Assembly (NCBI RefSeq): GCF_027158005.1
Contig: NZ_JAPVLQ010000001.1
Location: forward strand, 682,001-746,000
Direction of reading: 5' to 3'
DNA: 64,000 nt
DNA from: Rhodococcus sp. H36-A4
GTDB lineage: Bacteria; Actinomycetota; Actinomycetes; Mycobacteriales; Mycobacteriaceae
The translations under genes and the position numbers were made by a program. Every line of letters begins with the position of its first letter. The stretch's first letter is position 1. The notes under the pieces were generated by a model. The model had not been told where the DNA came from. It did not search any database and saw only the letters and a program-made list of their open reading frames with translations. Positions 1,233-47,371 of the stretch are shown here, piece by piece.

Positions 1233-1275
1233 AGCTCACCGGCACCACCATGGCTGTATCGAAAGGATCTACCCC

Positions 1276-4726: not shown

Positions 4727-4785
4727 ACATTCAATTGGTATGAGCAACGTCTCACAAACAGCACCGCGGATTGTTTACGTGCAGC

Positions 4786-4813
4786 TTGACAATCACAAAG
4801 CATCTTTTAAGGT
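4786..4813 (+). promoter_or_regulatory. Putative promoter for the 4946 glycosyltransferase pair
   Basis: TTGACA (4786-4791) is followed after 16 bases by TAAGGT (4808-4813), which fits the actinobacterial -35 and TANNNT -10 pattern. It lies in a locally AT-rich stretch in the 219-base gap between the membrane-protein gene and the next glycosyltransferase. The implied leader is about 125 bases. Confidence 0.5.
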
Positions 4814-4945
4814 ATATACAGGCTGAAAACAGGATGTCGCGTTCGAAATATCGAACACGCGCTCGTCCAGTCTGTGGGATCCGCCGGGGGTCGCGCCGCA
4901 GATGTTCCAAGCCTAAGTCGGTCATCGCACTAATACCTGTTTGGA

Positions 4946-5806: not shown

Positions 5807-6768
5807 GCGAGCTAACCTCGTCGGTCGTCGTCTGCGCCTACACGCTCGATCGCTGGGACGATCTCAGTGCGGCAGTCGATGCCGTGTTGGGTCAGTCCAC
5901 GGCTGCGACGGAACTACTTGTCGTCATCGACCACAACGAGCAATTGTTCGAGCGTGCGCGAGCGGAGTTTCTGCCACGTAGTTCGGCCGTGAACGTTGTC
6001 GAGAACTCGCATCCACGTGGCTTGTCCGGGGCCCGCAATACCTCGTTGGACCTCGCCTCAGGTGACATCGTGGTGTTCCTCGACGACGACGCAGCACCAC
6101 GCTCGACCGAGTGGATCGAGTCGATTTCCGCGCATTACGCGGACCCCACCGTCTACGCGGTGGGCGGGTCGGCGCACCCGGTCTGGCCCAGTTCACGCCC
6201 GGCTTTCCTGCCGACCGCGGTCGCGGGAGAACCGGGTGAACTGGATTGGATCGTGGGCTGTACCTATCGGGGCCAGCCCACGACTACCTCGACGGTTCGT
6301 AACCTCATGGGCGCCAATATGTCTTTCCGCCGCGCGCCGATCGTGGAGCTGGGCGGCTTCGTCTCCGGGATCGGCCGCATCGGGCGTATTCCGTTGGGCT
6401 GCGAAGAAACCGAGCTGTGCATCAGGCTCCGTCAGACTCACCCCGAAGCGCAGATCCTTTTCGACCCGTCGATCGCCGTCGACCACAACGTCAGCGCCGA
6501 CCGGACGCGGCCTCGGTATCTTCTCTCGCGAAGCTATGCCGAGGGGGTCTCCAAAGCTGCCATCGCTCGGCTCATCGGCCCCGGGGACGCCTTGTCTTCC
6601 GAGCGGTCGTACACGGCCAAAATTTTGCCGCGTGCAGTCGGACGCGAAACCGCTGCGGCGGCACAGGGAAACCCCGCCCGCTTGTGGGGCGCCCTCGCTG
6701 TCGTCACCAGCCTCGGTGCAGCCGGATTCGGTTATGCACGTGGACGATTGAGCCGTATCTCCGGTTAG
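5803..6768 (+). CDS. Glycosyltransferase family 2
   Basis: The 321-residue protein starts with SSVVVCAYTLDRWDDL and has a FLDDDAAP motif (D94-D96) for metal and nucleotide-sugar binding, plus LGCEETELCIRL near 200 in the acceptor/base region. A short hydrophobic stretch near the C-terminus (LAVVTSLGAAGFGYA) could be a membrane contact. GTG at 5803 is chosen because it overlaps the previous stop as GTGA; the frame is open upstream only as an alternate frame of that gene. Its 3' end overlaps the convergent GH2 gene by four bases, closing the plus-strand carbohydrate cluster. Confidence 0.83.
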   Translation: MSELTSSVVVCAYTLDRWDDLSAAVDAVLGQSTAATELLVVIDHNEQLFERARAEFLPRSSAVNVVENSHPRGLSGARNTSLDLASGDIVVFLDDDAAPRSTEWIESISAHYADPTVYAVGGSAHPVWPSSRPAFLPTAVAGEPGELDWIVGCTYRGQPTTTSTVRNLMGANMSFRRAPIVELGGFVSGIGRIGRIPLGCEETELCIRLRQTHPEAQILFDPSIAVDHNVSADRTRPRYLLSRSYAEGVSKAAIARLIGPGDALSSERSYTAKILPRAVGRETAAAAQGNPARLWGALAVVTSLGAAGFGYARGRLSRISG

Positions 6769-13551: not shown

Positions 13552-13677
13552 CTCGCGGTCCGTTTGAATCCCACTCGAAGGGCCTACTTGACCACTGGAT
13601 ACGCATTACCGGTCAAACGTACGGTCCGGTATTTTTCCAGTAGGAAATTCTCCATCGCATGATGCAAGATGTGACAC

Positions 13678-13899
13678 ATGCCGATGTATCAGGTCAGAAC
13701 CGAGGACGAAGTACTCGCCGAAGCCGAGCTTCCGACCGACAGCAAAGCGATGACGTGGGCGGTCCGCATGACGACCGTGCACCGCAAAACCCTCCGCGGG
13801 CGGCGATGGCAAGGTCACCGTCTCGTCGGCAGCGTCTGGGAGCACCGGTTCGGTGGAGGCCGCAGGACCGCAGCACGCGGCGATGCCACTGCCGGCTGA
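13678..13899 (+). CDS. Small conserved-looking hypothetical protein
   Basis: The 73-residue frame starts MPMYQVRTEDEVLAEAEL and has GC-rich third positions like its neighbours, an acidic first third and a basic, glycine-rich end (GSVWEHRFGGGRR). I do not recognise a family. No strong ribosome site is visible, and overlapping frames exist on both strands, so it may not be translated. It lies between the phosphatase and a secreted Thr/Pro-rich protein gene. Confidence 0.45.
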   Translation: MPMYQVRTEDEVLAEAELPTDSKAMTWAVRMTTVHRKTLRGRRWQGHRLVGSVWEHRFGGGRRTAARGDATAG

Positions 13900-13985
13900 G
13901 CGCCGCTCACTCCTTCTGCGGTAGCGTTCGCAGGTCATTTCCGCGGTAACGTGGCCGGCGGGAATCGGAGTGAGGGTTGATCTAC

Positions 13986-28903: not shown

Positions 28904-29584
28904 TCAGGAGCCGATCGGCCGGAAACCCGCGCCTGTTCCGCCGCGCGCACCGAGCATGTTCACCGAGTCGAGAGCCGATGCGTAGACCGTGGGGCTCAGC
29001 AGGGGTACTCCGTCGGCGTGGCTGGCGATGCCGACGAGGGTTGTCCCGCTGACCAGTGCGCTTCCCGAGTCCGCCCACAGTGTCGGGGTATCGGTCACGA
29101 GGTCCGATCCGCGCACTTCCCGGATGGTGCCGCAGGTGACGCCGCTGGCTACTCCGGATTTGCAGACGGGTTGTCCCGGAACGGCTTGTCCGATGCCGGT
29201 GACGGTGACGCCGCCTACCGAGGACACCGGGATCACTTTTGCGGGGTCGAGTGCGATGACTCCGTAGTCGGGACCCCAGTGCGAGGCGACCGTCGTTCCG
29301 ACCGGCCCGGCGCCGAGGTTACCGATGAGCGTCACCGGCAAGCCGGGCGAGAGGATGCAGTGTCCCGCCGTCAGGCCGACGAGGGTTCCCGACGCGTCGT
29401 ATCCGACTGCGGCGAAGGAGCATGCGGTCAGATCGTCGAGGCCGCCGGTGGTGACGTATCCCGTCCCCGGTCCGACGATCGCCCCTGGGGCTGCGACCGC
29501 GCTCGGCCCGGCGAGTACTCCTGTGCCGGCAGCGAACGCGATGGCCGCAGCAACCACCGCTCCTGCGGCCATCGCACGTCTCAT
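28904..29584 (-). CDS. Secreted chymotrypsin-like (S1 fold) serine protease
   Basis: The 226-residue protein has a signal peptide (cleavage near AVAAP, about residue 32) and a compact S1-type catalytic domain. The triad reads LTAGHC (H75), DYGVIAL (D106) and ADSGSAL (S173). Two disulphides are likely (C55-C76, C141-C151). GDSGGP is changed to ADSGSA, as in several actinobacterial S1 relatives. Its start overlaps the end of the BY-kinase gene (ATGA), so it is translationally coupled to a polysaccharide regulator. The substrate is unknown. Confidence 0.8.
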   Translation of the reverse strand: MRRAMAAGAVVAAAIAFAAGTGVLAGPSAVAAPGAIVGPGTGYVTTGGLDDLTACSFAAVGYDASGTLVGLTAGHCILSPGLPVTLIGNLGAGPVGTTVASHWGPDYGVIALDPAKVIPVSSVGGVTVTGIGQAVPGQPVCKSGVASGVTCGTIREVRGSDLVTDTPTLWADSGSALVSGTTLVGIASHADGVPLLSPTVYASALDSVNMLGARGGTGAGFRPIGS

Positions 29585-31089
29585 TCTCGGTGCCGCCGGC
29601 CCGAAGTGACGGTGACGGGAGCCGATGTGTCGGCCTTCTGCGTCGAGACCGGCACACTTGGCCCTTCGGGTTCCGACCACTGCGCAGAGACTGTTCCCGG
29701 AGTGACCGGGCTCGGTGTCTGGCGTGCGATGGTCTTGTCGGTCTCGTAGTAGTACGAGTAGCCGTCGCCACCCTTGCGGGTCAGGGGCATCATCGTGAAG
29801 ACAGCGCCGAGAACGTGGGCGCCGATGGTCTCGAGATTGCCGACGGCCCGGGACACTTCGCTTTCGCTGGTGTGACCGAAGCGTGCGACGATCAGCGCGC
29901 CGTCACTATGCGTGGTGAGCAGTGCCGAGTCGGTGACCGGCAGTAGTGGTGCACCGTCGATGATCACGTAGTCGAAGCTCTTACGCAGTTCTTCGATGAC
30001 GCGGCGTGAAGCTTCCGATCCGAGCAGTTCCGACGGGTTCGGCGGCAATGGTCCCGATGCGAGGACGTCGAGTCCCTCGTAGCTGCTGGGCTGGAGGACA
30101 TCGGAGATGTCTGCTTGCCCGGCGAGGACGGTCGACAGGCCGACCGAGCCGATGAGCCCGAGGTACTTCGACACGCGGGGGCGTCGTAGATCGCCTTCGA
30201 CGAGGACGACGCGGTGGCCTGCTTCGGCGAGAGCGAGCGCGAGGTTCACCGCGACGGTCGTCTTGCCCTCGGCGGGCACTGCACTGGTGACGACGATGAC
30301 GCGCGGCGGATGATCGACCTCGAGGAACTGCAGGTTGGTACGCAGTTCGCGGAAGCCTTCGGCGCTCACCGAGTGTGTTGCCCCGAAGGAGACGATCGAG
30401 GATTCTTTGAATGCCTTGTCGTAGGGGATGGTGCCGACAAGCGCTGTGTTGGCGGCAGCTTCGAGCTTCTTGCGAGTCTTGATGGTGTTGTCGAGCCGGT
30501 CGCGAAGGACTGCGAGCGCGATACCGAGGAGCAGACCCACTGCGGCTCCGAGGGCAAGGTTGCGGGTCGTCTTCGGGCTGATCGGTGACGCAGATTCTTG
30601 AGCTTGCTCGACCACTCGGACGCTCGAGGCAGGCGCGCCGCCGTCTTCGGGGGTTTCGAGCTCACGGACGAGGACTGTCAGCTGGTTGCCGAGTGAGTTC
30701 GCGATATCGCGTGCGGTTCCGGGGTTGGTGTCCACGACGCACGTGTCGAGCAGAACGGTGTCGGGGGTGGACGTGGCGGTGACCTTGGCCGCCAACTCGG
30801 CAGGTGTGATGCCGGTCAAGCCGAGTTCGTCGATCGTGCGGGCGGCCAACGTTTCACCCTTGACGAGCTCCGAGTACGACGCGACGCGCTGCTGCGCGAA
30901 GAGGTTGCCCTGGTAGCTTTCGCTCACTGTCGACCCACCGGAGGTGGAGACGAAGACTCGACTGCACGACTGGTAAGTCGGCGTGGTCAGAAGTGAGGCC
31001 GCTAGTGCGCCCAGGGTGGCGACGGCAACGGTGACGACGATGATCATCCAACGCGTTCGCAGGATCTGGAGGTAGTCCTGGATTTCCAC
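29581..31089 (-). CDS. Polysaccharide co-polymerase with BY-kinase domain (Wzz/Wzc-like)
   Basis: The 502-residue protein has a Wzz chain-length domain flanked by two membrane helices (about 14-36 and 176-194) and a cytoplasmic tyrosine autokinase domain. It carries Walker A SAVPAEGKTTV (about 268-278), Walker A-prime VLVEGDLRRP (about 293-302), Walker B YVIIDGAP (about 374-381), and a C-terminal tyrosine cluster GYSYYYETD (about 441-449). Walker A-prime has EGD instead of the usual DAD. These proteins control export and length of capsular or exopolysaccharide. GTG 31089 has AGGGAG upstream. The phosphatase at 13048 is a candidate partner. Confidence 0.9.
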   Translation of the reverse strand: MEIQDYLQILRTRWMIIVVTVAVATLGALAASLLTTPTYQSCSRVFVSTSGGSTVSESYQGNLFAQQRVASYSELVKGETLAARTIDELGLTGITPAELAAKVTATSTPDTVLLDTCVVDTNPGTARDIANSLGNQLTVLVRELETPEDGGAPASSVRVVEQAQESASPISPKTTRNLALGAAVGLLLGIALAVLRDRLDNTIKTRKKLEAAANTALVGTIPYDKAFKESSIVSFGATHSVSAEGFRELRTNLQFLEVDHPPRVIVVTSAVPAEGKTTVAVNLALALAEAGHRVVLVEGDLRRPRVSKYLGLIGSVGLSTVLAGQADISDVLQPSSYEGLDVLASGPLPPNPSELLGSEASRRVIEELRKSFDYVIIDGAPLLPVTDSALLTTHSDGALIVARFGHTSESEVSRAVGNLETIGAHVLGAVFTMMPLTRKGGDGYSYYYETDKTIARQTPSPVTPGTVSAQWSEPEGPSVPVSTQKADTSAPVTVTSGRRHRE

Positions 31090-31151: not shown

Positions 31152-34100
31152 TCACTCGGTTCGTACGGGCACCACTTCCGGCGCAAGAGTGAATTGCACG
31201 ACGTCGATGCGCCCGTCTTTGAAGCGCGATGAGCATCCGGTGAGGTAGTGGATGTACCTGTCGTAGTTCTCTTCCGACGACAGGGCGATTGCGTGCGGCC
31301 GTGCGGCGACGAGCCGCTCGGTCCATTCGTCGAGTGTGCGTGCGTAGTGCGGTCCGAGCGCATGCTCGCGCTCCACGCTGAATCCGGCCTCGGTGGACTT
31401 CTTGGTCACCATGTCCGACAACGCCAACTGTCCACCGGGAAATATCTCGCGCATGATGAACCGTACGAAGTGCGCGTCGTCGCGGGTGAACTCCACACCG
31501 CTGGCGATGACTTCCGCGAGCGGACGCATCACGATGGTGTGCAGCAACATTCGACCGTCTGCGGGGAGAACCGAGCGACACTTGTCGAAGAACGCCGAAT
31601 ACCGCTGACGCCGAAAGTGTTCGAATGCGCCGATGCTGACGATGCGGTCGACGGGCTCGTCGAACTCCTCCCAGCCCTGCAGACGGATATCCACCGTGCG
31701 CACACTCGACAGGTCCGCCACAGTTTTACGCGCGTGATCGTATTGGTTCCGACTCAACGTCAAACCGATGACGTCGACGTCGTACTTCTCGGCAGCACGC
31801 TTGGCCAACGAACCCCAACCGCATCCGACGTCGAGCAGTGTCATCCCGGGCTGCAAGTCCAGCTTGCCCAGCGCGAGATCGATTTTCGCCAGCTGCGCTT
31901 GCTCGAGCGTCATATCTTCGCGCTCGAAATACGCGCAGCTGTAGGTCATGCTCGGATCGAGGAACAGCTCGAAGAACTCGTCGGACAGGTCGTAATGCGC
32001 CTGCACATTGTCGACATACGGCTCGAGTTTCTTGACAGCGCTGGATCGGTTCATCACGCCACGCCTTCCGCGAGAAGAGGTGATGCCGATTGCTCGGCCT
32101 ATGGTGTGGGCGCTTGCTTCACCCAGCAGATCTTCGTGTTCAGCATCGATGCGGACGACCGAGAGGTGGCCGCCGACGTACTGTTCCCATTGCTGCGCGC
32201 CGTGTGATCCACGGGCCGCAAAGTACACGACGTCACCGTCGTATATTCGGGGTCGGTGTGCTGCCACCCACCGCGGAGCAGCCACTACCGGGGCATACAT
32301 TCTGCGAAGATGGTCACTGGTGAGGAATCCGAGTTCGCTTCGTGTGTAACGCAATTGCGCCACGACATCCTCGAACGAGGACCCGTTGACTCCCAGTTGC
32401 CGCGCCAGATCCTCTACACCGAAGTCGACGGCGTCGGCAGGCATGTCAGTTGGCACGCTCAGCTGCGGGTCGAGCAATGCGAGTAGCGCGACTTCCTCCC
32501 CCGTGCTCTGCAGGACGGTCGCGACGGCATGCGCGATCACTCCACCGAGCGACCACCCGAGCAGGTGATAGGGCCCGGTGGGCTGAACTGCGCGGATCTC
32601 CCGCACGTATCGGGCCGCGAACGCGTCGATCGAGGCAGGCGAGGCTTCACCGCTGGCGATGCCGGGAACCTGGAGCCCGTAGAGCGGCCGGTCGGTGACC
32701 GAAAGCAACGACAGGTAGCTCCACGCGATGCCGATCGCTGGGTGGATGCAGAACAGTGGCTCTCGTTCGCCTTCGACCCGCAGTGGCAGTACGACATCGA
32801 AGACGTCGCCGCCGGCGTCGACGAGTCCGTCCAGCTTGGCCGCCAACGACGCCGCGGTCGGGTGCGTCAACAGCCAGCTGACGGGGACCGGACGTCCGAG
32901 TTCGTCGCCGAGGTTGTCGATCACGCGCACCACCGACAGCGAGTGTCCGCCGAGGTCGAAGAAGTTGTCGTCGACGCCGATACGGTCGGCGTCGATCTCG
33001 AGAACTTCCGCGAACGACGCACGCACGCTCCACTCCAGGGGCGTCGACGGCGCAAGATGCACGACGGTCGCCAGCGTGGGTTCGGGTAGTGCTCGCGCGT
33101 CGACCTTTCCGGAGATCGACATCGGGAGCGTATCCACGACGGTGACCGAGGCGGGAACCATGTAGGCAGGAATTGTGCGCGTGAGGAATTCGCGGACTAC
33201 GCCGGCATCGGTGTCGCCGGCGATGTAGGCGGCCAGCGAGTGATCGTGCCCGAGGACGCAGGCCTGTTCGACGTCGGGATGCCGCAGCAGTGCCGCTTCC
33301 ACCTCCGCGAGTTCGACGCGATGTCCGCGGATCTTGACCTGCGAGTCGACGCGTCCGAGGTACTCGAGTTCGCGTGTGTTCCGGTGCTCCACCCATCGGA
33401 CTAGGTCGCCGGTTCGGTAGAGGCGCTTGCTCTTGTCGCCCAGCATGTTCGGCACGAAGCGGCTGGCGGTGAGTCCGGGCTGGGACAGGTACCCTTCGGC
33501 CAGCCCTGGGCCGCCGAGGTACAGCTCCCCCACCACGTTGTCCGGTACGGGCCGCAGCCGTGCATCGAGGACGACGGCGTCGAATCCGCGCACCGGTCCG
33601 CCGATGGTCACCGCGGCGAGGTGTTTCAGTGCGGGCGTACAGGTTCCCATGACCGTGACCTCGGTCGGCCCGTATGCGTTGAACACGGTGCTGCTGCGCG
33701 ACCAGCGTTGCACCAGTTCGGTATTGGCTGCTTCGCCGGCCATGATGACTACGTCGACGGTCGGTGTGGCCGCCGGGTCGGTGATCTGCAGGACGGTCGG
33801 GGTCAGGCACACGTGGGTGACGGCTTGGCTAGTGATGAACGTTTCGAGTTCGCGTCCCGCATAGACCTCGGCGGGCACGACTACCACGGCGGCGCCGACG
33901 CCGCAGGCGAGGAGCATTTCGAAGATCGAGGCGTCGAAACCTGGGGATGCGAACTGCAGGACCCGAGATTCGGTATCGACTCCGAACGTATCGCGTTGGC
34001 TCTGCACCAGATTCGCGATACCCCGATGTGTCACGCGCACGCCCTTGGGGGCGCCCGTCGAACCCGAGGTGTAGATGACGTACGCGGTGTCGTCGAGATA

Positions 34101-37100
34101 CGTAGTGTCTTCGAAATACGAGCGAAGCAGGGCCGGCTCGGGGGAACTAGCCAAGCCGTCGACCGTCACCCATCGTCCTCCGACAGGAGCGAGGGCCGCC
34201 CTGGTGATGCCGGTGACGGGCTGGGCGTGTTCGAGGATTTCCTCGATGCGTGTGGCCGGATGGTTCGGGTCGATCGGCAGGTAACCGGCCCCGCTCTTGG
34301 CGACGGCCCACAGTGCCGCTACGAGATCGGCGGACCGCGGCAGCGCGACGGCAACCAGAGTTCCCGGCCGCGCACCTTCAGCGATAATGCTGTCCATCAA
34401 CACATTCGAGCGACGGTCCAGTTCGGCGTACGTCAGTGATTCGCCGCCGTCGACGACGGCTGTTGCGTCCGGCCAGGTCTGGGCGGCCCGGCGCACGAGG
34501 GTGCCGAGGGTGTAGCGGTCTTCGGCATCGTCGGTGTGCGAAACGACGTCCGAGCGGGCTGCAAGAAAGTCGAGGCTGCCGAGTTCGATGTCCGGGCGTG
34601 CGGCGACGAGTCGGAGCACCGACTCCAGCCGTTCGGCGAGAGCGACGCACACGGACCGTTCGAAGCGGTCGCCGGAGTAACCGAGTTGTCCGCTCAGCCT
34701 GTCGACGGTGTGCTCGATGACGATTTCGAGGTCGAACTGGTTCTCGGAGATGTCGATTCGCTGTGGCGATACTTCACCGGTGCCGAGTTCGAAGGTTGGG
34801 ATCTCCAGCGCACCGACGGCGAGGAGCACCTGGAACAGTGGGTGGGAGTCGATGGCTCTGGTCGGTTCCACGGCTTCGACGACCCAGTCGAACGGTACGG
34901 CCGAGTGGGCGAATGCGTCGAGGTCGCGGTCGCGGACGTCGGTGACGAACTGCTCGAATGTCTTGTTCGGTGCCACGTCGGTCCGGAGCACGATGGTGCC
35001 GACGAACATGCCGACCAGGTCGTCGAGCGCGGGTTCGGAGCGTCCCGATACCGGGGTGCCGATGGCGATGTCCGCGGTGCCGCTGGCTTCGGCGAGCACG
35101 GCGGCCAGTGCGGCGTGGATCACCACGAACAGTGTTGCGCCCAGCCGGTTCGCGAGGCCGCGGAGGTCGGCGAAGGTGGCAGCGTCGAGTTCGAACGCGA
35201 TGGGTGTCGCGTTCTCCAAGGGGTTCGGGGTGCCGGTCGGTAGCTCGAGGTAGTCCGGTAGTCCGGCCAGGGTGCGCCGCCAGTAGGCGAGTTGCTCGAC
35301 TGCGACCGAGTCCAGCACGTCGTGCTGCCACAGGCGGTAGTCGGAGTAATCGACTGTCAGCGGGGTGAACTCTGGCTGCAGCCCTGCCGCCCTGGCGGTC
35401 AGCGCGGTGGAGACGTCGCGCGCGAGCGGGGTGAGCGAGAGTCCGTCGACGGCGATGTGATGGGCGACGACCACCAACGACATCTCACCGCCGCTGCGTA
35501 CAACGTTGAGCCGCACGGGGGGCTCGACGGTCAGGTCGAATCCAGTTTCGGCCAGCAGCTTCGCGTCGGCGTGGCGACCGTCGATCGAGGAGACGACGAT
35601 CTCGGCGTCGAGCAGCATCGCGATCGGGCCGTCCGGGGTGGACGGGTAGACGGTGCGCAGCGGGAGGTGACGCTCGAGCACGTCGACGATCGCGGCTCGG
35701 AGAACCGCAAGGTCGGAGTCCGCGGGGAGCGGCAGTGCGAACGCGATGTTGTAAGCGGCAGAGGTGGGGTCGAACCGATTCTGGAGCCACACCCGCCGCT
35801 CGGCGGGAGACAGGGTGCCGTCCTCGCGTGCCTGCGCCCGATGCACCAGCGCGGGCGGGCTGACGTACGCCTCGGACAGCAGGTCGATTGCCGCAGCGAG
35901 GGCGCGCGCGCTCGGCGCTTCGAACAAGGTCCGAACCGGAACGTGGGTGCCCAGCGCGGCGCCGATGCGTGCGGTTGCGCGCGTGGCACTCAGTGAATCA
36001 CCGCCGAGGACAAAGAAATTAGCGTCTGCGGCGGGATCGACGACGTCGAGGGCGTCGGCGAAGATCCCGAGGATGACTTCCTCGGCAAGCGTTCGGGCTG
36101 CCGAGTGGTCTCCGGCTACCGGGGTCGGTGCAACCAGCGCGGAGAGGTCGACCTTGCCATTGGCGGTGACGGGGATGCGATCGACCGCGACGATCACGGC
36201 GGGCACCATCGACAGTGGTAGCCGTTCGAGCAACCACGGTGCGAGTTCGCGCTCGTCGGCCCCGACGGCCCAGGCCACGATTCGGCCGTCGCGGACGTCG
36301 GCGACCGCAGCCTGGACTGCGGGATGGGCGGTGAGGGCAGATTCGACGTCGCCGAGTTCGACGCGCACACCGCGCAGTTGGACTTGCGAGTCGCCGCGGC
36401 CACGGTAGTCGAGCACACCGGATGCCTCGCAGCGGACGAGATCGCCGGTCCGGTATAGCCGCTGTCCACTGGGGCCTGCGACGAAGCGCTCCGCGGTCAG
36501 TGCGGGGCGAGCGCGGTAGCCGCGCGCAACGCCACTGCCACCGAGGTACAGCTCGCCGACGCCACCGACCGGGACCGGCCGTAGGCGAGTGTCGAGCACG
36601 AGTGCATACACGTGCGGCAGCGGTGTGCCGATGGTGATGCGGTCTCCGGCGTCGAGTGGGTCGGTCAGCGTGGCGACGATGGTGGCCTCGGAAGGGCCGT
36701 ACGCGTTGAGCATTCGCCGTCCCGGTGCCCAGTCGTCGACCACTGCGCTTCCCAGGACGTCGCCGCCGACGGCCACGGTGGTGACACCGGCAACCGGGGG
36801 CACGGTGGCGAGCAAGGCCGGTGTGGAGAGATAGTGGGTGACGGAGTGGGCAGTGAGGAACCGCGCCATCTCGTCCCCGTCGAGTATCTCGCTGGGCGCA
36901 AGAACCATGGTGGCACCGGCTCCGAAGGCCAGCACCAGTTCCAGCACAGCTGCGTCGAAGTTCGTCGAGTACCCGTGCAGCACCCGCGAGGAAGCGGTGA
37001 CGTCGTAGCGCGAAACTACCTGCTGCGCAAGTGCATACACAGCCTCATGCGTCACCGTCACGGGCTTCGGTACGCCGGTGGATCCCGAGGTGTGAATGAC

Positions 37101-40100
37101 ATAGGCCGGATGGGCAGGGAGCACCGCCGCAGCGCGGTCGGCGTCGACCAGGGGGCTGTCGTCGAAAGCATCTGCAGCAGCCTCGTCAAGCCACAGCACG
37201 CCCTCTTCGACACCGCCGAAGCCCAGGTGGGTGCCGGTGAGGATCTGCTGGCGTCGCAAAGCCGGGTAGCTCGGATCGACCGGTAGGAACGCAGCGCCGG
37301 ACTTCACCACTGCCCACAGGGCCACGATGTACTCCGCGGATCGTGCGAGCGAGAGTGCCACGGTGGTCTCGGGTGCGGCGCCGCGGTCGATCAGCAGGCG
37401 CGCCAACCGGTTGGATCGGCTGTCCAGTTCGCGGTAGGTCAGCGTCGATTCGCCGTCGAGTGCAATTCGGTCGGGCATCTCGCATGTCAGCACGTCCAGG
37501 AGCGCTCCCTCCGTGCTGCGCTCGGGTTGTGCAGGCAGAGAGACGAGTTCGATATCTCCCACCACGACGAACGGGTTCTCGACGACTGCTTCGAGAACAC
37601 TCACGAAGGCTGCAGCGAAGCGTTCGACGGTCTCCCGGTCGTACAGGTCTTTCGCGTATTCGATGTCGCCCGCGATACCGTCGGCGGTTTCGCGGGCGAC
37701 GACATTGAGGTCGAATTCGGAGGTGTGTGTGGAGATGGGCAGCACGGTGACCGGGAGGTCCTCGATCGACTGATGGTGGGCATTGTCGAATGCCAGCATC
37801 ACTTGGAACAGTGGGTGGCGGTCCAAGGATCGATCGGCGCTCAGGGCGTCGACGATCCGCTCGAACGGCAGGTCGGAGTGCGCGAACGCGTCGAGATCTG
37901 CGTGCCGAACGGTGTCGAGGAGTTCGATGAAGGTGCCGTCACGGTCCACCTCGACCGCCAAGGGCACGGTGCCGACGAACATTCCGACCATGTCGTCGAG
38001 TGCTTGGTCTCCGCGACCGGCCGAGGGTGAACCCAGGACGGTGCGGTCGCAATCGCTGAAGCGACTCAGAGTCAAGGCAAGTGCGGCATGGACGACCATG
38101 AACGTCGTTGCATTCTCACCGAGCGCGAGAGAACGAATCTGTGCGTGCACTTCGGTGCCGATGGAGAGGGGGACGCCTGCTGTCTGCATCGACTGCACGG
38201 CCGGGCGCGGGCGATCGGTCGGCAGCTCAGCGCTTGGCCGGTCCAGAGCATCGAGTGCGAGTGTCCAATAACGCAATTGATCCTCGGCGGCGGAGTCGAC
38301 CACAGCTCTGTTCCACACCGCGTACTGGCTGTACTGGGCTTGCAGGCGCGGCCACGTGGGAGCATGCCCGGCGGAGCGTGCGGCGTAGGCGACGGTGAAG
38401 TCGCGCACGAGAGGATCGATCGACCACCCGTCGACCGAGATGTGATGCATGACGATGACGACAACCGTCGCCTCGGACGAACCCTCATGCGAGGAGACGG
38501 CGAGCAGCGACGCGCGGATGGGGACCTCGGCAGCGACGTCGAAACCCTTCGATGCCAGCTCGGCGATCGCGCCGTCGAGTTCACCGGGTCCTACTTCGCT
38601 GGTGAGAATCTCGGGCAGAACTCCGGCTGTGGGCAGCACTACCTGGCGTGGGCCGCTGCCGTCGTCGGGGAAGTAGGTGCGCAGCGACTCGTGCCGTTCG
38701 AGCACGTCCCGCAGTGCAGCGACGACGAGGCTCGAGTCTCCACCCGAAGGCAACTGCACGGCCACCGGCATGTTGTATGCGGGCGAAGCCGAATCGAACT
38801 GGTTGAGGAACCACATGCGCTGCTGCGAGTACGACAGCGGCACCCGCTCGGGGATCACGGTGTCGAGCAGATCGAGCGAATCCCGCTGATCGACAGCCGA
38901 ATCGATGGCAACCGCAATCGCAGCGACCGTCGGCGCGTCGAACAGGACGGGCAGCGTGACCGCGGAGCCGAGCCTGGCCACCACTCGCGTCGCGCTCAGC
39001 GAATCGCCACCGAGCTCGAAGAACGAGTGCGTGCGGCCGACGATCGGTACGTCCAACACTTCGGCGAACACCGCGGCGACAGCGCGCTCGGTATCGGTCT
39101 GCGGGGCAACGTATTCGGTGACCGTGGTCGGCGCCGGGTCGGGCAGTGCCCGGCGGTCGAGCTTGCCGCTCGCGGAGAGTGGTAATGCATCCAGTTCGAC
39201 GACGCGGTCCGGAACCATCCACCCCGGAAGGAAGGCGCGCAGGTGCGCACTCACTCCTGTGGTCTCGCCGACGACGTACGCGACGAGGTGGTCTTCACGA
39301 ACGTCGACGGCAACGGCATCGACACCCGCCAGCTGCAGTGCAACCGATTCGATTTCTCCGAGTTCGAGGCGACGGCCGTGTAGTTGGAGCTGCTGGTCGG
39401 CGCGGCCCAGGTATTCGAGTGACGTGCCGAAGATCGACCATCGCACCAGATCGCCTGTGCGATAAAGCCTTCGACCGGGCGCAGCCGGATCCGCTACGAA
39501 ACGGCTCGCGGTGACGCTGGGTTGCCCGTCGTATCCGCGCGCGAGAGAGTCACCGCCCAGATAGAGCTCGCCGATTCCGCCGTACGGGACGGGCCGCAAC
39601 CGGTTGTCGAGTACGAGCGCGCGGACGCCGGGAAGCGGACCACCGATGGTGATCCGTTTCCCAACGCCCATGGGTGCGGAAAGCGTGGCGAGGACGGTTG
39701 CCTCGGTCGGGCCGTAGGCGTCGAGCATGTCGGGGCCGGCGTCGGCGAACCGGTCGCGGAGTGCGGGCGGGCATGCTTCACCGCCCACGTCGAATACCTC
39801 GAGGCCTTTGACGTCCAGCGGTTCGAGCGTCGCGAGGACGGTCGGGGAGGTAATGAGGTGCGTGATGCGTTCTTCGGCCAGGAGGTCGGCGAGCGCGGGG
39901 CCCGCGTACACGTCGGCGGGCGCGATGACGAGTGTGGCACCGGCAGCGAACGCCGCCAGGATTTCCTGAATGGACGCGTCGAACACCGGTGAGGCCAGGT
40001 GCAGTACCCGCGAGTCCGATGAGACCGAGTACCGATCCACGACCGCTGATGCAAGCTGCGCGAGTCCGCGGTGACCGACGCTGACGGCCTTGGGCTTTCC

Positions 40101-41939
40101 GGTCGAACCGGAGGTGTGGATGGCGTACACCTCGTTGTCGAGGTGAACCCGGCGAACTTGAAAGGGTAGGGGTTCGGCGTCGAGAAGGTCTTCGATGGCC
40201 AGCCACTCGACTGCGCCGGGGAGCGTGCCGAGCAGTGCGCGTTCGGTGATGCCGACCCGCACTCCGGTGCTACTGAGCATGGAGGTCAACCGGTCGGTCG
40301 GATCGTGCGGATCGACGGGCACGAACGATGCGCCCGCTACCGACACGGACCACAGAGCCAGCACGGAGTGCATCGAGCGGTCCAGCGCGATCGCGATCCG
40401 AGTCTCTGGTGAGGCAAGGAAAGGCGCAAGCTGACCCGCGATATGGCGTGCACGAGAGATGAATTCGACGCCCGCGAGTTCCTGCCCGGCGCAGCGGACA
40501 ACGGTAGAGTCCCGCAGCAACTCGGGCAGCAGAGCAGGTGGTGGACCCTGCGAGTCCACGGCGAGCAGGGCGTCCTCTTCGGCGGGCGAGAGCACTTTCA
40601 GGTCCGCGAGCGGCAAGCCGTCCGGTGCCGCGAGAACGGTACGCAGCAGCCCGAGGAACCGCTGATGGTGCGTGCTCAGTTCCTCGGTGCTGTAGATCGC
40701 GGGGTTACCGAGGAAGTCGACGCGGGTGCTGGCGCCGGCGACCCCCGGGTAGACATTGACCATCATGTCGTCGATCGGGCCGCTGGAGAGCACACGGTAT
40801 TCGCCGATGACGTCGCCGAGCCGAATTGTGCTGTCGTACATCATGATGTTCACGGTCGGGCCGAAAGCTCCGCGGCCGGCGGAGGTACTGCCCTCGAACC
40901 CGCCGTCGGTTTCACGCTGCATGTCCTCGACGCGGAACCTCTGATGCCGCAGCGCACCGGTGAGCTCGACCTGGATGCGACGCAGTAGTTCCTCGATGGT
41001 GACGTCCGGGTCGACACCGATGCGCAGCGGCACGATATTGGACATCATTCCGGAGGAGTCACGCAGTTTGGTGGTCGCACGGCCCGAGACGGGGAGGCTG
41101 AGCATGACGTCGTCGGTGCCGGTCATCCGCGCGAGGTACAGCGCGAACGTCGCGAGCACGACGGGGACGTCGGAGGAGTTGTAGCGCTGGGCCAGCGCGG
41201 CCATTGCGTCGGTGAGCTCGTCGTCGAGCACTGCGCCGACGCTGATCGATACGGCACTGGGCACCGCCGCACCGGAATGCGAGGTGCCTGCAAGACGTGG
41301 CGCATCGGCGTGACCGTCGAGTCGGCCGACCCAGTATTCGCGGTCGGCTTCATAGCGCGTGGAACCGACGTAGGCGGTTTCGTAGTCGTAGATCGCCCGG
41401 ACACCGACGGCGCGCGTCTTGGGTACGTCGGCGCCGGTCAGCAGGGCCGTGTATGCCGCGGCGGTGCGCTCCTGAACCGAAATTGCACCCAGGCCGTCCA
41501 TGACGACGTGGTGAGCTCGGCTGTACCAGAAGTAGTGTGCTTCGCCGACCTGCATGATCTCCGAGGCGATCAGTTGATCGCGGACCAAGTCGACGGGCTT
41601 TCTGTATTGCTCGTCCATGTAGCGGTGGGCGTAGCCGACGGGGTCGCTCTCGTCACGAAGGTCGCGGTAGATCATCGCGTAGGGAACGTTGAGGTCGAAC
41701 CACTGGTATGGCTGGCCGTCGTCCTCACCCAAACGCACGCCAGGCGATTCGAGCTCGCGGCACGCGATGTCGGTTGCCCGGATCAACGTGGCGGGGTCGA
41801 TCTCGCCACGGATCTCGACGAACTGCGCGATGGTGAACGGAACTCCCGGCGCCAGCTTCTGCGCGAAGTAGATGTTGAGCTGAGCGGGCGACAGCGGGAA
41901 CCAGTCGATCCCGCTGGGGGCACCTTCCACTGACGACAC
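31152..41939 (-). CDS. Three-module NRPS (C-A-T)x3-TE fused to a cyclopropane/mycolic acid synthase-type methyltransferase
   Basis: One uninterrupted frame of 3595 residues. Module 1: C domain of EntF type (about 10-460, HHVVMDG near 142), A domain (about 470-935, HTSGSTGKPKA, YRTGDLVR), T domain (GGDSLS near 977). Module 2: C (about 1035-1470, HHISVDG), A (about 1477-1930), T (GGDSLS near 1979). Module 3: C (about 2045-2475, HHIAVDG), A (about 2480-2945), T (GGHSLS near 2995). A thioesterase follows (GWSLGG near 3130, DAEHEDLL). From residue 3296 to the end lies a full-length (300 residues) SAM-dependent CMAS/CFA-type domain with LLDVGCGWGSLAKR, LTLSRNQYDHA, SIGAFEHF and EIFPGGQL. All core motifs are intact. 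Specificity residues read by eye are DAQIFVAVLK, DALLVVAIVK and DAFCIAAVMK, which suggest neutral, non-acidic residues but match no code I can name. No epimerase domain is present. The GTG start has AGGAGGGG 8 bases upstream. Expected product: a tripeptide released by the thioesterase, perhaps acylated by the first C domain and methylated or cyclopropanated by the last. MbtH, PPTase and exporter genes are not in the window. Confidence 0.88.
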   Translation of the reverse strand: MSSVEGAPSGIDWFPLSPAQLNIYFAQKLAPGVPFTIAQFVEIRGEIDPATLIRATDIACRELESPGVRLGEDDGQPYQWFDLNVPYAMIYRDLRDESDPVGYAHRYMDEQYRKPVDLVRDQLIASEIMQVGEAHYFWYSRAHHVVMDGLGAISVQERTAAAYTALLTGADVPKTRAVGVRAIYDYETAYVGSTRYEADREYWVGRLDGHADAPRLAGTSHSGAAVPSAVSISVGAVLDDELTDAMAALAQRYNSSDVPVVLATFALYLARMTGTDDVMLSLPVSGRATTKLRDSSGMMSNIVPLRIGVDPDVTIEELLRRIQVELTGALRHQRFRVEDMQRETDGGFEGSTSAGRGAFGPTVNIMMYDSTIRLGDVIGEYRVLSSGPIDDMMVNVYPGVAGASTRVDFLGNPAIYSTEELSTHHQRFLGLLRTVLAAPDGLPLADLKVLSPAEEDALLAVDSQGPPPALLPELLRDSTVVRCAGQELAGVEFISRARHIAGQLAPFLASPETRIAIALDRSMHSVLALWSVSVAGASFVPVDPHDPTDRLTSMLSSTGVRVGITERALLGTLPGAVEWLAIEDLLDAEPLPFQVRRVHLDNEVYAIHTSGSTGKPKAVSVGHRGLAQLASAVVDRYSVSSDSRVLHLASPVFDASIQEILAAFAAGATLVIAPADVYAGPALADLLAEERITHLITSPTVLATLEPLDVKGLEVFDVGGEACPPALRDRFADAGPDMLDAYGPTEATVLATLSAPMGVGKRITIGGPLPGVRALVLDNRLRPVPYGGIGELYLGGDSLARGYDGQPSVTASRFVADPAAPGRRLYRTGDLVRWSIFGTSLEYLGRADQQLQLHGRRLELGEIESVALQLAGVDAVAVDVREDHLVAYVVGETTGVSAHLRAFLPGWMVPDRVVELDALPLSASGKLDRRALPDPAPTTVTEYVAPQTDTERAVAAVFAEVLDVPIVGRTHSFFELGGDSLSATRVVARLGSAVTLPVLFDAPTVAAIAVAIDSAVDQRDSLDLLDTVIPERVPLSYSQQRMWFLNQFDSASPAYNMPVAVQLPSGGDSSLVVAALRDVLERHESLRTYFPDDGSGPRQVVLPTAGVLPEILTSEVGPGELDGAIAELASKGFDVAAEVPIRASLLAVSSHEGSSEATVVVIVMHHISVDGWSIDPLVRDFTVAYAARSAGHAPTWPRLQAQYSQYAVWNRAVVDSAAEDQLRYWTLALDALDRPSAELPTDRPRPAVQSMQTAGVPLSIGTEVHAQIRSLALGENATTFMVVHAALALTLSRFSDCDRTVLGSPSAGRGDQALDDMVGMFVGTVPLAVEVDRDGTFIELLDTVRHADLDAFAHSDLPFERIVDALSADRSLDRHPLFQVMLAFDNAHHQSIEDLPVTVLPISTHTSEFDLNVVARETADGIAGDIEYAKDLYDRETVERFAAAFVSVLEAVVENPFVVVGDIELVSLPAQPERSTEGALLDVLTCEMPDRIALDGESTLTYRELDSRSNRLARLLIDRGAAPETTVALSLARSAEYIVALWAVVKSGAAFLPVDPSYPALRRQQILTGTHLGFGGVEEGVLWLDEAAADAFDDSPLVDADRAAAVLPAHPAYVIHTSGSTGVPKPVTVTHEAVYALAQQVVSRYDVTASSRVLHGYSTNFDAAVLELVLAFGAGATMVLAPSEILDGDEMARFLTAHSVTHYLSTPALLATVPPVAGVTTVAVGGDVLGSAVVDDWAPGRRMLNAYGPSEATIVATLTDPLDAGDRITIGTPLPHVYALVLDTRLRPVPVGGVGELYLGGSGVARGYRARPALTAERFVAGPSGQRLYRTGDLVRCEASGVLDYRGRGDSQVQLRGVRVELGDVESALTAHPAVQAAVADVRDGRIVAWAVGADERELAPWLLERLPLSMVPAVIVAVDRIPVTANGKVDLSALVAPTPVAGDHSAARTLAEEVILGIFADALDVVDPAADANFFVLGGDSLSATRATARIGAALGTHVPVRTLFEAPSARALAAAIDLLSEAYVSPPALVHRAQAREDGTLSPAERRVWLQNRFDPTSAAYNIAFALPLPADSDLAVLRAAIVDVLERHLPLRTVYPSTPDGPIAMLLDAEIVVSSIDGRHADAKLLAETGFDLTVEPPVRLNVVRSGGEMSLVVVAHHIAVDGLSLTPLARDVSTALTARAAGLQPEFTPLTVDYSDYRLWQHDVLDSVAVEQLAYWRRTLAGLPDYLELPTGTPNPLENATPIAFELDAATFADLRGLANRLGATLFVVIHAALAAVLAEASGTADIAIGTPVSGRSEPALDDLVGMFVGTIVLRTDVAPNKTFEQFVTDVRDRDLDAFAHSAVPFDWVVEAVEPTRAIDSHPLFQVLLAVGALEIPTFELGTGEVSPQRIDISENQFDLEIVIEHTVDRLSGQLGYSGDRFERSVCVALAERLESVLRLVAARPDIELGSLDFLAARSDVVSHTDDAEDRYTLGTLVRRAAQTWPDATAVVDGGESLTYAELDRRSNVLMDSIIAEGARPGTLVAVALPRSADLVAALWAVAKSGAGYLPIDPNHPATRIEEILEHAQPVTGITRAALAPVGGRWVTVDGLASSPEPALLRSYFEDTTYLDDTAYVIYTSGSTGAPKGVRVTHRGIANLVQSQRDTFGVDTESRVLQFASPGFDASIFEMLLACGVGAAVVVVPAEVYAGRELETFITSQAVTHVCLTPTVLQITDPAATPTVDVVIMAGEAANTELVQRWSRSSTVFNAYGPTEVTVMGTCTPALKHLAAVTIGGPVRGFDAVVLDARLRPVPDNVVGELYLGGPGLAEGYLSQPGLTASRFVPNMLGDKSKRLYRTGDLVRWVEHRNTRELEYLGRVDSQVKIRGHRVELAEVEAALLRHPDVEQACVLGHDHSLAAYIAGDTDAGVVREFLTRTIPAYMVPASVTVVDTLPMSISGKVDARALPEPTLATVVHLAPSTPLEWSVRASFAEVLEIDADRIGVDDNFFDLGGHSLSVVRVIDNLGDELGRPVPVSWLLTHPTAASLAAKLDGLVDAGGDVFDVVLPLRVEGEREPLFCIHPAIGIAWSYLSLLSVTDRPLYGLQVPGIASGEASPASIDAFAARYVREIRAVQPTGPYHLLGWSLGGVIAHAVATVLQSTGEEVALLALLDPQLSVPTDMPADAVDFGVEDLARQLGVNGSSFEDVVAQLRYTRSELGFLTSDHLRRMYAPVVAAPRWVAAHRPRIYDGDVVYFAARGSHGAQQWEQYVGGHLSVVRIDAEHEDLLGEASAHTIGRAIGITSSRGRRGVMNRSSAVKKLEPYVDNVQAHYDLSDEFFELFLDPSMTYSCAYFEREDMTLEQAQLAKIDLALGKLDLQPGMTLLDVGCGWGSLAKRAAEKYDVDVIGLTLSRNQYDHARKTVADLSSVRTVDIRLQGWEEFDEPVDRIVSIGAFEHFRRQRYSAFFDKCRSVLPADGRMLLHTIVMRPLAEVIASGVEFTRDDAHFVRFIMREIFPGGQLALSDMVTKKSTEAGFSVEREHALGPHYARTLDEWTERLVAARPHAIALSSEENYDRYIHYLTGCSSRFKDGRIDVVQFTLAPEVVPVRTE

Positions 41940-42194: not shown

Positions 42195-42779
42195 TCAGGG
42201 GCCGTACCGTACTGCGGCAACTGTCCGGTACAGGATGCGGATGTCGCGCGCGAGCGACCACGAGTCCACATAGCGGCGATCGAGCATCGCTGCGTCCGGT
42301 CCTGAGAGGTCTGCGCGGGGCGCCAACACCCACAGCCCGGTAATCCCCGGACGGCAGTCGGCGGGTACTTCCCCCTCGTGAATGTCGGGTCGATCCGCGG
42401 TGGGTCGCGGTCCGACCAAGCTCATGTCGCCACGAAGAACATTGACCAGCTCGGGCAGATGATCCATCCCGAGCCTCGTCAGGAGTACGCCGAGCCGCTG
42501 CTCAGGAGATGTCCTGAAGCTCAGGAGCCGAAAATTGACGCCCCGGCGACCGATGCGCGTCGAGGACGCGAACGTCGGCTCACCCTCGGCCCCACTGGTC
42601 AGAATCACGCATCCGAGGAATACCGGCGCCAGGACCATCAGGATTGTTGCGGCCACGACCCTGTCGAATATGACCTTGGTCGCAGATTGCACCGGATCGA
42701 GCCGCGCGGGACCCGCCGATCCGCCCTGCTGTGGTATCGGGGAATCCGAACCGCACCCTCCCGAACTACCGCGGATCAC
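42195..42779 (-). CDS. Bacterial sugar transferase (monotopic phosphoglycosyl transferase) with altered catalytic dyad
   Basis: The product (194 residues from GTG 42779; a TTG at 42800 would add seven) has one N-terminal membrane hairpin (about 38-60) and the phosphoglycosyl transferase core with LPELVNVLRG, MSLVGPRP (119-126) and RPGITGLW. These enzymes load the first sugar phosphate onto undecaprenyl phosphate. The catalytic Asp-Glu dyad, normally DELPQ, reads DHLPE here (D106, H107), so the Glu is missing. It may be inactive or use another residue. It is short compared with WbaP types, lacking the N-terminal helical region. AGGGGA precedes the GTG. Confidence 0.75.
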   Translation of the reverse strand: MIRGSSGGCGSDSPIPQQGGSAGPARLDPVQSATKVIFDRVVAATILMVLAPVFLGCVILTSGAEGEPTFASSTRIGRRGVNFRLLSFRTSPEQRLGVLLTRLGMDHLPELVNVLRGDMSLVGPRPTADRPDIHEGEVPADCRPGITGLWVLAPRADLSGPDAAMLDRRYVDSWSLARDIRILYRTVAAVRYGP

Positions 42780-43048
42780 TCTCCCGACTCCCCTCTCCAA
42801 ATGAGACGATCCCCCTGGACCGCCATATTATTATCGACGGTAACCATCATCACGTTACGATTTCAGCGCCTCGAATCCATCTTTTACCTGATTGTATTAA
42901 TTCCCGATACATTCAAACGAATTACCCCACTACCTCAATACCCACTACCGACGTCGACGCACTAGTCTTCCCACGGGCGCGCATATCTTCTTTTCGCAAT
43001 ACCGCGCCCTTCACTCGAACCATCCCTAGCATCAGGAGCCCCGTCGAC

Positions 43049-44821
43049 ATGACCTCTGGCACCGAGACCCGCCCGCCGTCGCGCAAGAACAAGCGCCCCG
43101 TCCTGTTGGGTGTCGGCATCGTTCTGGTCATCGTTCTCGCCTTCCTCTCGTGGCTGGCATACGAGGCCGTGACGGCGAAGTCCAATTTGGAGACAACGCG
43201 GGACGCCGCGAACTCCGCCAAGAACGCGCTGCTCGACGGCGATGTGCCGGGAGCGCAGGCCGCTGCCGCCGAGGCGAGCGAGTCCGCGGACAAAGCCCAG
43301 AGCGCGGCGTCGTCGCTGCCGTTCACGATCGTTGCCGCAATCCCAGTGCTCGGCAGTCCGCTCGAGACGATCGTCGAGATCACCGATGTCGTCCGAGGCC
43401 TCGCTGTCGACGTTCTCGAACCTGCGGCGCAGGCGAGTGCCAGTATCTCCCCCGACAACGTCATCGAGGGAGGCGGCCGAGTGAACTTGCAGTCGCTCAC
43501 CGACGCCGAGCCGATCCTCGCGGAGACATCCGCCGCGGCACAGGACCTTTACGCGCAGGCTAAGGCAATCGAGGCGCCCGCCTATCTCGGTGTGGTCGAC
43601 GACGCCCGTGTGCAGCTCGAGAATCAGACCCACGATCTGTCGGGGTTGCTGAGCAACACCTACACGGCGAGCCGGATCGTGCCTTCGATGATGGGCGCCA
43701 ACGGTCCCCGCTCCTACTTCCTTGCCTTCCAGACCAATGCCGAGGCACGCGGCACGGGCGGCCTACTCGGTGGCTTCGGAATTGTGCGCGCCGACAACGG
43801 AACTGCCCGGGTGGATACCCTCGGCAGCAACCGCGAGCTGGAGTTCGCGGAGCAGCCGATCGACCTCGGCCCCGAGTACACCGCGCTGTGGGGACCACGT
43901 AACACCACGACCGACTTCCGCAATTCCAATGCGAGCCCGCACTTTCCGTATGCAGGCCAGGTCTGGACTTCGATGTGGGCCGAGCAGACCGGTGAGAAGC
44001 TCGACGGCGCCGTCGCTACCGATCCTGTCGCCCTCGGCTACATCCTCGACGCGACCGGCCCGGTCACACTCGCCGACGGTGAGGTCATTTCGGGTGACAA
44101 CGTCGTCGAGGTGACGCTGTCCAGTGCATACGCTCGGTTCGGCGAGGATCAGCTCGCTCGCAAGAACTACCTGCAGGAAATCTCAGCAGCTGTCGTGTCG
44201 AAGATGACGACGGGCGTCGCTCCGACCCGCAAGTTGCTCGACGCGGTCGGCCGGGCAGGCAGCGAGGGACGCATCTCGGTGTGGAGCGCAGATCCCGCCG
44301 AACAGGAAGTCCTGGCGGGTACGAAGGTCGGCCACACGCTCCCGAACGATCCTGCGCCGTACGCCAACGTGATCGTCAACAACGCAGGCGGAAACAAGCT
44401 GGACTACTACCTGACTCGCGATATCTCGTACACCGCGGAATCGTGCACCGGACCGACCCGTAAGTCGACGGTGACGGCGACACTGACCAACACCGTGAAC
44501 TCGGACGGACTGACTCAGTACGTGGCCAGTACTTTCCAGCCCGGTGTCCCGTACGGTACCAACGAGTCGATTGCCTACCTGTACGGAACGCAGGGCGCCA
44601 AGATCACCGGCATGAAGGTCGACGGCGTCAACGCCTTCTCGGTCCAGAAGGGTACCGAGCTGGGTCGACCCGTCCAGGCTGCGTACGTCACGATCCCGCC
44701 CGGTGAATCCTCGACTGTCACTTGGGAACTGGAGGAGCCTTCCGTTTCCGGTGAAGCTACGGTTCCGGTCCAGCCGCTAGTGGACACTCCGACTATCAGC
44801 ATCGATCTTCCCCAATGCTGA
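43049..44821 (+). CDS. DUF4012 domain-containing membrane protein
   Basis: The 590-residue protein has one N-terminal membrane helix (about 18-40), an Ala/Ser-rich helical segment (about 50-105) and a large extracytoplasmic DUF4012 region with SYFLAFQTNAEARGTGGLLG and GAVATDPVALGYILDATGP. DUF4012 proteins often lie in polysaccharide loci; the sequence partly resembles LytR-CpsA-Psr-associated envelope proteins, but the function is unknown. ATG 43049 has AGGAG 10 bases upstream; the longer frame is open only by chance. The 269-base gap to the divergent transferase gene is AT-rich and should hold both promoters. Confidence 0.82.
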   Translation: MTSGTETRPPSRKNKRPVLLGVGIVLVIVLAFLSWLAYEAVTAKSNLETTRDAANSAKNALLDGDVPGAQAAAAEASESADKAQSAASSLPFTIVAAIPVLGSPLETIVEITDVVRGLAVDVLEPAAQASASISPDNVIEGGGRVNLQSLTDAEPILAETSAAAQDLYAQAKAIEAPAYLGVVDDARVQLENQTHDLSGLLSNTYTASRIVPSMMGANGPRSYFLAFQTNAEARGTGGLLGGFGIVRADNGTARVDTLGSNRELEFAEQPIDLGPEYTALWGPRNTTTDFRNSNASPHFPYAGQVWTSMWAEQTGEKLDGAVATDPVALGYILDATGPVTLADGEVISGDNVVEVTLSSAYARFGEDQLARKNYLQEISAAVVSKMTTGVAPTRKLLDAVGRAGSEGRISVWSADPAEQEVLAGTKVGHTLPNDPAPYANVIVNNAGGNKLDYYLTRDISYTAESCTGPTRKSTVTATLTNTVNSDGLTQYVASTFQPGVPYGTNESIAYLYGTQGAKITGMKVDGVNAFSVQKGTELGRPVQAAYVTIPPGESSTVTWELEEPSVSGEATVPVQPLVDTPTISIDLPQC

Positions 44822-46174: not shown

Positions 46175-46188
46175 TTGACGAGCGTCAA
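46175..46188. promoter_or_regulatory. TTGACG-N2-CGTCAA operator, copy 2
   Basis: TTGACGAGCGTCAA lies 89 bases upstream of the phosphotransferase start. It repeats copy 1 with a different two-base centre. Confidence 0.75.
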
Positions 46189-46276
46189 ATGTCATATCGA
46201 ACCCCATGCGCCGGTTGCGATTCACTCCAGTGCGCCCAGTAGACACCAAGAGCCAGTTCCGTGGAAGGGACCCACA

Positions 46277-47371
46277 GTGAGCACACCCGTATCGATCCCC
46301 CGCTTTCCAGACGAGGTAACCAGCACCTGGCTCACTGGCGTGCTCGCCCCAAGGGGTGAGGAAATCCGGGTAAGCGATGTCATCGTCGATCCCATCGGCA
46401 CAGGTCAGACCGGTGCTACGTACCGAATCTCGGCAACCTATTCGGCCAACCCCGCCGGATTGCCGACCACGTTCGTCATCAAGTTGCCCGTAGTGGACGA
46501 CGAAAGCCGCGCACGGGTAGCTCTCGGCTACCGAAGCGAATGCGCCTTCTACGCGTCGGTGGCCGACAAGGTGCAGATCCCCGTGCCTCGATCCTTTCAC
46601 TGCGAAATTACCGACGACTCGTTGAACTATGCACTCCTGCTGGCAGATCAAGCGCCCAAGGAGCAGGGAGATCAGATCGCGGGCTGTAGCGAACGGGAAG
46701 CGAACCTTGCCGGTGCTGCAATCGCCGGCCTGCACGGCCCGACGTGGAATACTCCGGAATGGCTTACATTCGATGGGCTTGCCATGACATCGCTCGACGC
46801 TGCCGGCGCGAAAGGACTGGGCGACGTCTGTGTCATGAGTGCGGGCCTCACCGCCGAGAAGCTGGCGGCACGACTCAGCAGTGCGGACGTCGAAACCCTC
46901 ACCGCGGCAATGAGCCTGGTGACCCCATGGTTGCTGGCAGACTTCGGACGCTTCAGTTTGCTTCATGGTGACTACCGTCTCGACAACATACTTTTTCACC
47001 CCGACAACGATGAGATTTCAGTTGTGGATTGGCAGACCCTGAGTGTCGGGCTACCCGCTCGGGATCTCGCCTATTTCATGGGCACCAGCGTTCGAACCGA
47101 GCTGCGCAGGTCCATCGAGCGCAACGTCGTCGATACTTATCACGCCGCGCTGAGCGGTTACGAGATTCCCGGATTCGACCTCGAAAGTTGCTGGCAAGAT
47201 TACAGATTCGGAATGATTCAAGCATTGCTGATGCCCTCGCTCGGATGCGCCTTCGCAGTCGACTCCTCTCGTGGTGACGATATGTTCGTGTCCATGATCG
47301 AGCGCGGTTGCCAGGCAATCCGAGATCTCGACACTCTGAAGTTGGTAGCAGAGAAAAGCGTCGACAATTGA
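46277..47371 (+). CDS. APH-like phosphotransferase (ecdysteroid kinase/aminoglycoside kinase fold)
   Basis: The 364-residue protein has the APH kinase-fold motifs LLHGDYRLDNILF (catalytic Asp near 232) and VVDWQTLSVG (metal Asp near 252). The N-terminal lobe has TGQTGATYRI and TTFVIKLPV, giving the nucleotide loop and lysine. Relatives phosphorylate small hydroxyl compounds, and in actinobacteria they lie near lipid or steroid catabolic genes. GTG 46277 has GGAAGGGA upstream; the longer frame has no ribosome site and crosses the operator. The substrate is unknown. Confidence 0.78.
   Translation: MSTPVSIPRFPDEVTSTWLTGVLAPRGEEIRVSDVIVDPIGTGQTGATYRISATYSANPAGLPTTFVIKLPVVDDESRARVALGYRSECAFYASVADKVQIPVPRSFHCEITDDSLNYALLLADQAPKEQGDQIAGCSEREANLAGAAIAGLHGPTWNTPEWLTFDGLAMTSLDAAGAKGLGDVCVMSAGLTAEKLAARLSSADVETLTAAMSLVTPWLLADFGRFSLLHGDYRLDNILFHPDNDEISVVDWQTLSVGLPARDLAYFMGTSVRTELRRSIERNVVDTYHAALSGYEIPGFDLESCWQDYRFGMIQALLMPSLGCAFAVDSSRGDDMFVSMIERGCQAIRDLDTLKLVAEKSVDN

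Follow-up and report, generated by a model that had tools for sequence, protein, structure and literature searches.

The placement of a methyltransferase after the terminal thioesterase (TE) of a nonribosomal peptide synthetase (NRPS) in Rhodococcus sp. H36-A4 is a single-lineage frameshift fusion of an overlapping gene pair, and not a designed NRPS architecture. The methyltransferase is of the cyclopropane mycolic acid synthase type (CMAS). Probably, the locus is a two-gene NRPS-CMAS unit of one Rhodococcus/Rhodococcoides lineage, with a dedicated tailoring CMAS, fused here by a one-base indel. The fusion looks recent and accidental, and the pairing of the two genes looks old. The analysed stretch of 64,000 nucleotides is called the window below.

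Table 1. Features of the fusion locus and adjacent genes (window coordinates)
Feature	Position	Strand	Protein	Remarks
NRPS-CMAS fusion ORF	31152..41939	minus	3595 aa	(C-A-T)x3-TE, then CMAS in frame
C1, starter-type condensation domain	40620..41939	minus	aa about 1-440	boundary approximate; HHVVMDG
C2, elongation-type condensation domain	37539..38846	minus	aa 1032-1467	Pfam
A3 adenylation domain	33105..34493	minus	aa 2483-2945	Pfam; specificity residues DAFCIAAVM
T3 carrier domain	32838..33026	minus	aa 2972-3034	Pfam
Type I thioesterase (TE)	32103..32759	minus	aa 3061-3279	Pfam
Net one-base insertion	32076..32076	minus		creates the fusion; aligner's placement, against the two nearest CMAS-bearing relatives
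TGA matching the relatives' NRPS stop	32054..32056	minus		out of frame here; overlaps the CMAS start codons (GTGATG)
CMAS, mycolic-acid-type SAM methyltransferase	31152..32054	minus	300 codons	from ATG, plus stop
Wzz/polysaccharide tyrosine autokinase gene	29581..31089	minus		Pfam and NCBIfam; directly downstream of the fusion
DUF4012 gene, divergent	42731..44821	plus		Pfam; annotated start uncertain

The fusion ORF starts with GTG and has no internal stops. The TE-CMAS join exists in the assembly (4.65 Mb, 29 contigs, completeness 100, contamination 0.12). The Pfam matches are three each of Condensation, AMP-binding and PP-binding, and one each of Thioesterase and CMAS. This agrees, as do the NCBIfam matches, with the first-pass annotation, which had read three C-A-T modules, a TE and a complete CMAS in one open frame. 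The HHxxxDG motifs of the C domains, the GG(D/H)SL motifs of the T domains and the GWSLGG motif of the TE are intact. The expected Ser/Asp/His triad of the TE (S80, D107 and H218 of the TE stretch) is invariant in all 12 aligned sequences. The CMAS match covers aa 3305-3583 (E 4.9e-109; PF02353, 364.3 bits against a cut-off of 27), some 25 residues from the Pfam match of the TE. NCBIfam model NF040660 (mycolic_MTase, cut-off 390) scores 428.9 on the whole protein and 435.8 on the CMAS part. The SAM motif TLLDVGCGWG is present together with this family signature, and the CMAS motifs are indeed intact, as annotated. The CMAS ATG at 32054 directly follows an in-frame GTG at 32057; the gene retains these start codons of its own and an upstream GGAAGG resembling a ribosome-binding site.

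Related loci were collected by searching 37 genus genomes, one of them the window's, for matches to the first A domain. The named relatives are Rhodococcus species and Rhodococcoides kyotonense, and we take the lineage of the window genome to be "fascians-type". The NRPS frames found are mostly about 3190-3380 aa long, as expected without a CMAS. The comparison covered 26 loci, twenty of them surrounding the best matches (from 19 genomes, of which one has two copies) and six shorter pieces; TE and CMAS are adjacent in 21 of the 26 (20 genomes). In every one of these 21 loci the NRPS ends at its own TGA, 6-15 codons past the end of the TE match, and the CMAS lies in another frame. A possible CMAS start (GTG or ATG) overlaps this TGA, forming the pattern RTGA, in 20 loci, and in locus L012 possible starts are found 4 or 7 nt after it. 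The overlap of stop and start suggests translational coupling. The five uncounted loci are L008, L009, L022 and L024, which have no CMAS match, and L014, where both TE and CMAS matches are missing; the genome of L014 has a TE-CMAS piece on another contig, counted as L116. In that genome (G031), L014 is an NRPS frame of 2870 aa and L116 lies near a contig end.

A conserved TE-CMAS domain architecture is thus ruled out, as none of the 21 related loci is fused. The first-pass annotation had treated the methyltransferase behind the TE as an unusual NRPS layout, and had itself named homologues with two always separate genes as the observation that would speak against this; such are the homologues in 21 of 21 loci. 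It had also proposed to look for the same junction in related genomes, and outside the window the junction was seen neither in these loci nor, with the whole TE-CMAS stretch as the query, in a match spanning both parts in any of the 395 other genomes of the phylum (396 with the window's; E<=1e-50, three candidates scored per genome). Genus genomes among the matches listed in this phylum search are G000 and G001 only. A search with the CMAS alone, with five candidates scored per genome, gave matches at E<=1e-60 in 156 of 401 genomes of the family. Among the matches listed, a CMAS within a frame longer than 1000 aa occurs in two cases only, the window and the second copy in genome G011 (L013).

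L012 and L013 (G011:C158) are tandem copies of the NRPS-CMAS unit. In L013 the NRPS start and the CMAS share one frame of 3591 aa, which is broken early in the TE. Since neither of them shares its frame with most of the TE, L013 is a frame-broken copy, and its candidacy as an independent TE-CMAS fusion was rejected.

In TE and CMAS, the window has 94-98% identity to its two nearest CMAS-bearing relatives. On the coding strand, the local difference at about 32076 is GG in the relatives and TTC in the window. The window reads CTCTTCTCGCGG, against CTC-GGTCGCGG in L007 and L010, and has one extra base, about 20 nt or six codons ahead of the old NRPS stop. L007 has protein identities of 98% in C1, 96% in TE and 97% in CMAS. 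In comparison with it, no indel other than the extra base shifts the frame without compensation inside the coding stretches of NRPS, CMAS and Wzz: the remaining gaps in these stretches sum to multiples of three, and another single-base gap falls between CMAS and Wzz.

The extra base could have arisen in the assembly only, by an error of base calling or assembly, in which case the organism would have two overlapping genes. Such an origin would fit the NRPS stop kept in all 21 related loci with both parts, and the high similarity of the nearest relatives, but it seems unlikely. The extra base does not fall in a homopolymer, and the neighbouring letters differ as well, so that the change is compound rather than a bare one-base indel. 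Further, the window was compared over its 64 kb with the orthologous stretch of a relative, genome G029 (aligned DNA 91.4-94.4% identical; NRPS protein 93.5%, CMAS 97.3%). The C-terminal ends agree for 39 of 50 matched window ORFs. Eight of the 11 disagreeing ORFs are shadow ORFs, overlapped by another ORF whose ends agree. The remaining ones are an ORF cut by the window end, ORF 13606-13938 (110 aa against 100 aa in G029, with a gap-free DNA alignment) and the NRPS-CMAS fusion. In these full gene comparisons with G029, no gap-caused break other than the fusion was seen across the 64 kb, and general frameshift errors in the assembly were rejected as an explanation. A real mutation is favoured by the non-homopolymer site, the compound change and the intactness of the other ORFs, and the fusion is likely to be present in the organism.

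The best PDB relative of the CMAS is CmaA1 (1kp9; full-length, E 3.5e-109). The Cys, Glu, His and Tyr positions of the catalytic site, whose roles we assume to be those in CmaA1, are invariant in 22 of 22 NRPS-linked and 19 of 19 other CMAS copies aligned. Model score, SAM motif and active-site residues all place the protein in the mycolic acid cyclopropane synthase/methyltransferase family. For the CMAS of the window and L007, dN is 0.012 and dS is 0.180, a low ratio. In a tree of 42 rows the NRPS-linked copies form one group (support 100/99), apart from ten other copies from the genus and nine from the family that were sampled. The tree is unrooted and allows a single event: judging from the sequences, the CMAS was apparently recruited into the NRPS unit once.

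In L008 and L009, whose A1 domains are 93% identical to the window's, an internal deletion has cut the CMAS to a short remnant (about 6893-7062 in L008 and 12916-13085 in L009; about 27 codons, as counted by eye in L008); the flanking NRPS and Wzz are retained. Thus the CMAS may be dispensable in the window lineage too. L022 and L024 have no CMAS trace between NRPS and Wzz; these two carry more distant NRPSs, with TE identities of about 48-50%. The CMAS is absent beside the NRPS in genomes G006, G007, G020 and G030, which therefore keep the NRPS without it. The simplest reading would be one recruitment of the CMAS and its later loss in at least one branch.

Alternatively, the CMAS could serve mycolic-acid or membrane-lipid metabolism and only happen to be located in the NRPS operon. 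Its family signatures do match the mycolic CMAS, and within the host genome the only CMAS match at E<=1e-40 is the fusion CMAS itself; the other strong Pfam CMAS match, at C22, is a longer and distant relative. We nevertheless find this doubtful, as the NRPS-linked copies group apart from the 19 other copies sampled, two species have lost the CMAS by deletion but retain the NRPS, and the CMAS start overlaps the NRPS stop. A dedicated tailoring enzyme is preferred. Counting the window's, 21 genus genomes tie a CMAS to one NRPS, which suggests the use of a mycolic-acid enzyme on a natural product. This underlying pairing matters more than the fusion itself.

The best PDB relatives of C1 include the first C domain of CDA synthetase I (4jn3), 7c1k (from an unnamed NRPS set), ObiF1 and EntF. 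Those of C2 are mostly internal C domains, with weak matches to CDA C1 and ObiF1. By these nearest solved relatives C1 is of the starter type, in line with the acylated starter proposed in the first-pass annotation. The NCBIfam models MxcG and EntF align best over the first module, with scores below their cut-offs. The nine specificity positions of the A domains, as we place them by PheA numbering, hardly differ between the related loci (20 of 20). The near-constant codes suggest one conserved product; those of A2 and A3 look aromatic-like, a resemblance on which the product proposed here does not rest. A scan of 30 neighbouring window proteins turned up no acyl-AMP ligase, no desaturase and no dedicated gene for acyl or aryl loading, which counts against the explanation preferred here; such genes may sit elsewhere in the genome. 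Most likely, the product would be a tripeptide with an acyl chain that carries an added methyl group or a cyclopropane ring. Action of the CMAS on the acyl chain or on the released product is plausible, for the fused protein and for separate genes alike.

The Wzz/tyrosine autokinase gene probably belongs to the same operon. In 14 of the 26 related loci a homologue with 77-99% identity to it follows directly downstream; the remaining loci lack it in the stretch, have it at another place, or show only a distant partial match (about 40-44%). The DUF4012 gene is found beside 19 of the 20 related NRPS copies checked, the exception being the first tandem copy in G011. Genes of the DUF4012 and Wzz/tyrosine-kinase families are usually linked with surface polysaccharides, and here they flank a peptide synthetase across much of the genus. 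A cell-surface setting is hinted at by these neighbours, as a lead only. Two family 2 glycosyltransferase genes lie at window positions 1090-6768, about 23-28 kb from the Wzz gene. A gene for an APH-type phosphotransferase-like protein at 46175-47371 has no match in the orthologous stretch of G029.

The following scenario may account for these observations. The ancestral unit would have paired a trimodular NRPS, primed by an acyl or aryl group, with a dedicated CMAS, the stop of the one overlapping the start of the other. This CMAS would be a SAM-dependent methyltransferase recruited from the mycolic-acid CMAS family. The NRPS with its TE would build and release an acylated tripeptide, and the CMAS would modify an unsaturated acyl chain with a methyl or methylene group, either ahead of loading or afterwards. 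A net one-base insertion near the NRPS end would then have shifted the frame to that of the CMAS, so that translation would read through into it, giving a TE-linker-CMAS tail. This would be roughly neutral, as the indel lies beyond the end of the TE match and the CMAS keeps its start and the ribosome-binding-like sequence.

It is also conceivable that the fusion is real and functionally selected, the CMAS being tethered in cis to act on a lipopeptide released by the TE or bound to a carrier. The open frame, the intact TE and CMAS with the short spacing of their Pfam matches, and the low dN/dS of the CMAS agree with selection. It is, however, highly improbable: the fusion is confined to one lineage, with 0 of 395 other phylum genomes matching across TE and CMAS, and the CMAS has its own start, so that its expression needs no fusion. 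An accidental fusion of the two-gene unit remains the preferred explanation, and the locus provides a clear example of a gene pair with overlapping stop and start becoming one gene by a single small change. The stronger version, that a CMAS recruited once as a tailoring enzyme of an acyl-tripeptide, and just now fused behind the TE, has been caught at the moment of fusion, is offered tentatively.

In the literature searched, no paper was found on a Rhodococcus NRPS with a cyclopropane mycolic acid synthase, on DUF4012 linked to a nonribosomal peptide, on a methyltransferase domain downstream of a thioesterase, or on CFA synthase, lipopeptide clusters and condensation domains together. The portions consulted of PMC5550956, PMC7504157, PMC11433410 and PMC12130866 do not describe an NRPS-CMAS cluster.

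In the portions consulted, PMC5550956 reports a C-starter domain at the head of most rhodococcal NRPSs, in keeping with the starter-type C1, and clusters peculiar to the R. fascians clade. The putative lipopeptide NRPS clusters in those portions are like the window NRPS in mostly having a C-starter first; the word "cyclopropane" occurs 0 times in the main text, and the portions consulted contain no CMAS-linked cluster. The fusion CMAS shares with CmaA1, PcaA, UmaA and MmaA1-4 a full-length match, the NF040660 signature and the catalytic-site residues; unlike them, it is paired with an NRPS gene and belongs to a separate, lineage-specific group. C1 resembles the C domains of CDA synthetase I, EntF, ObiF1 and MxcG, which have starter C domains and make acyl- or aryl-capped peptides. 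The window NRPS differs from these systems in having three modules and different A-domain codes, and in being followed by a CMAS.
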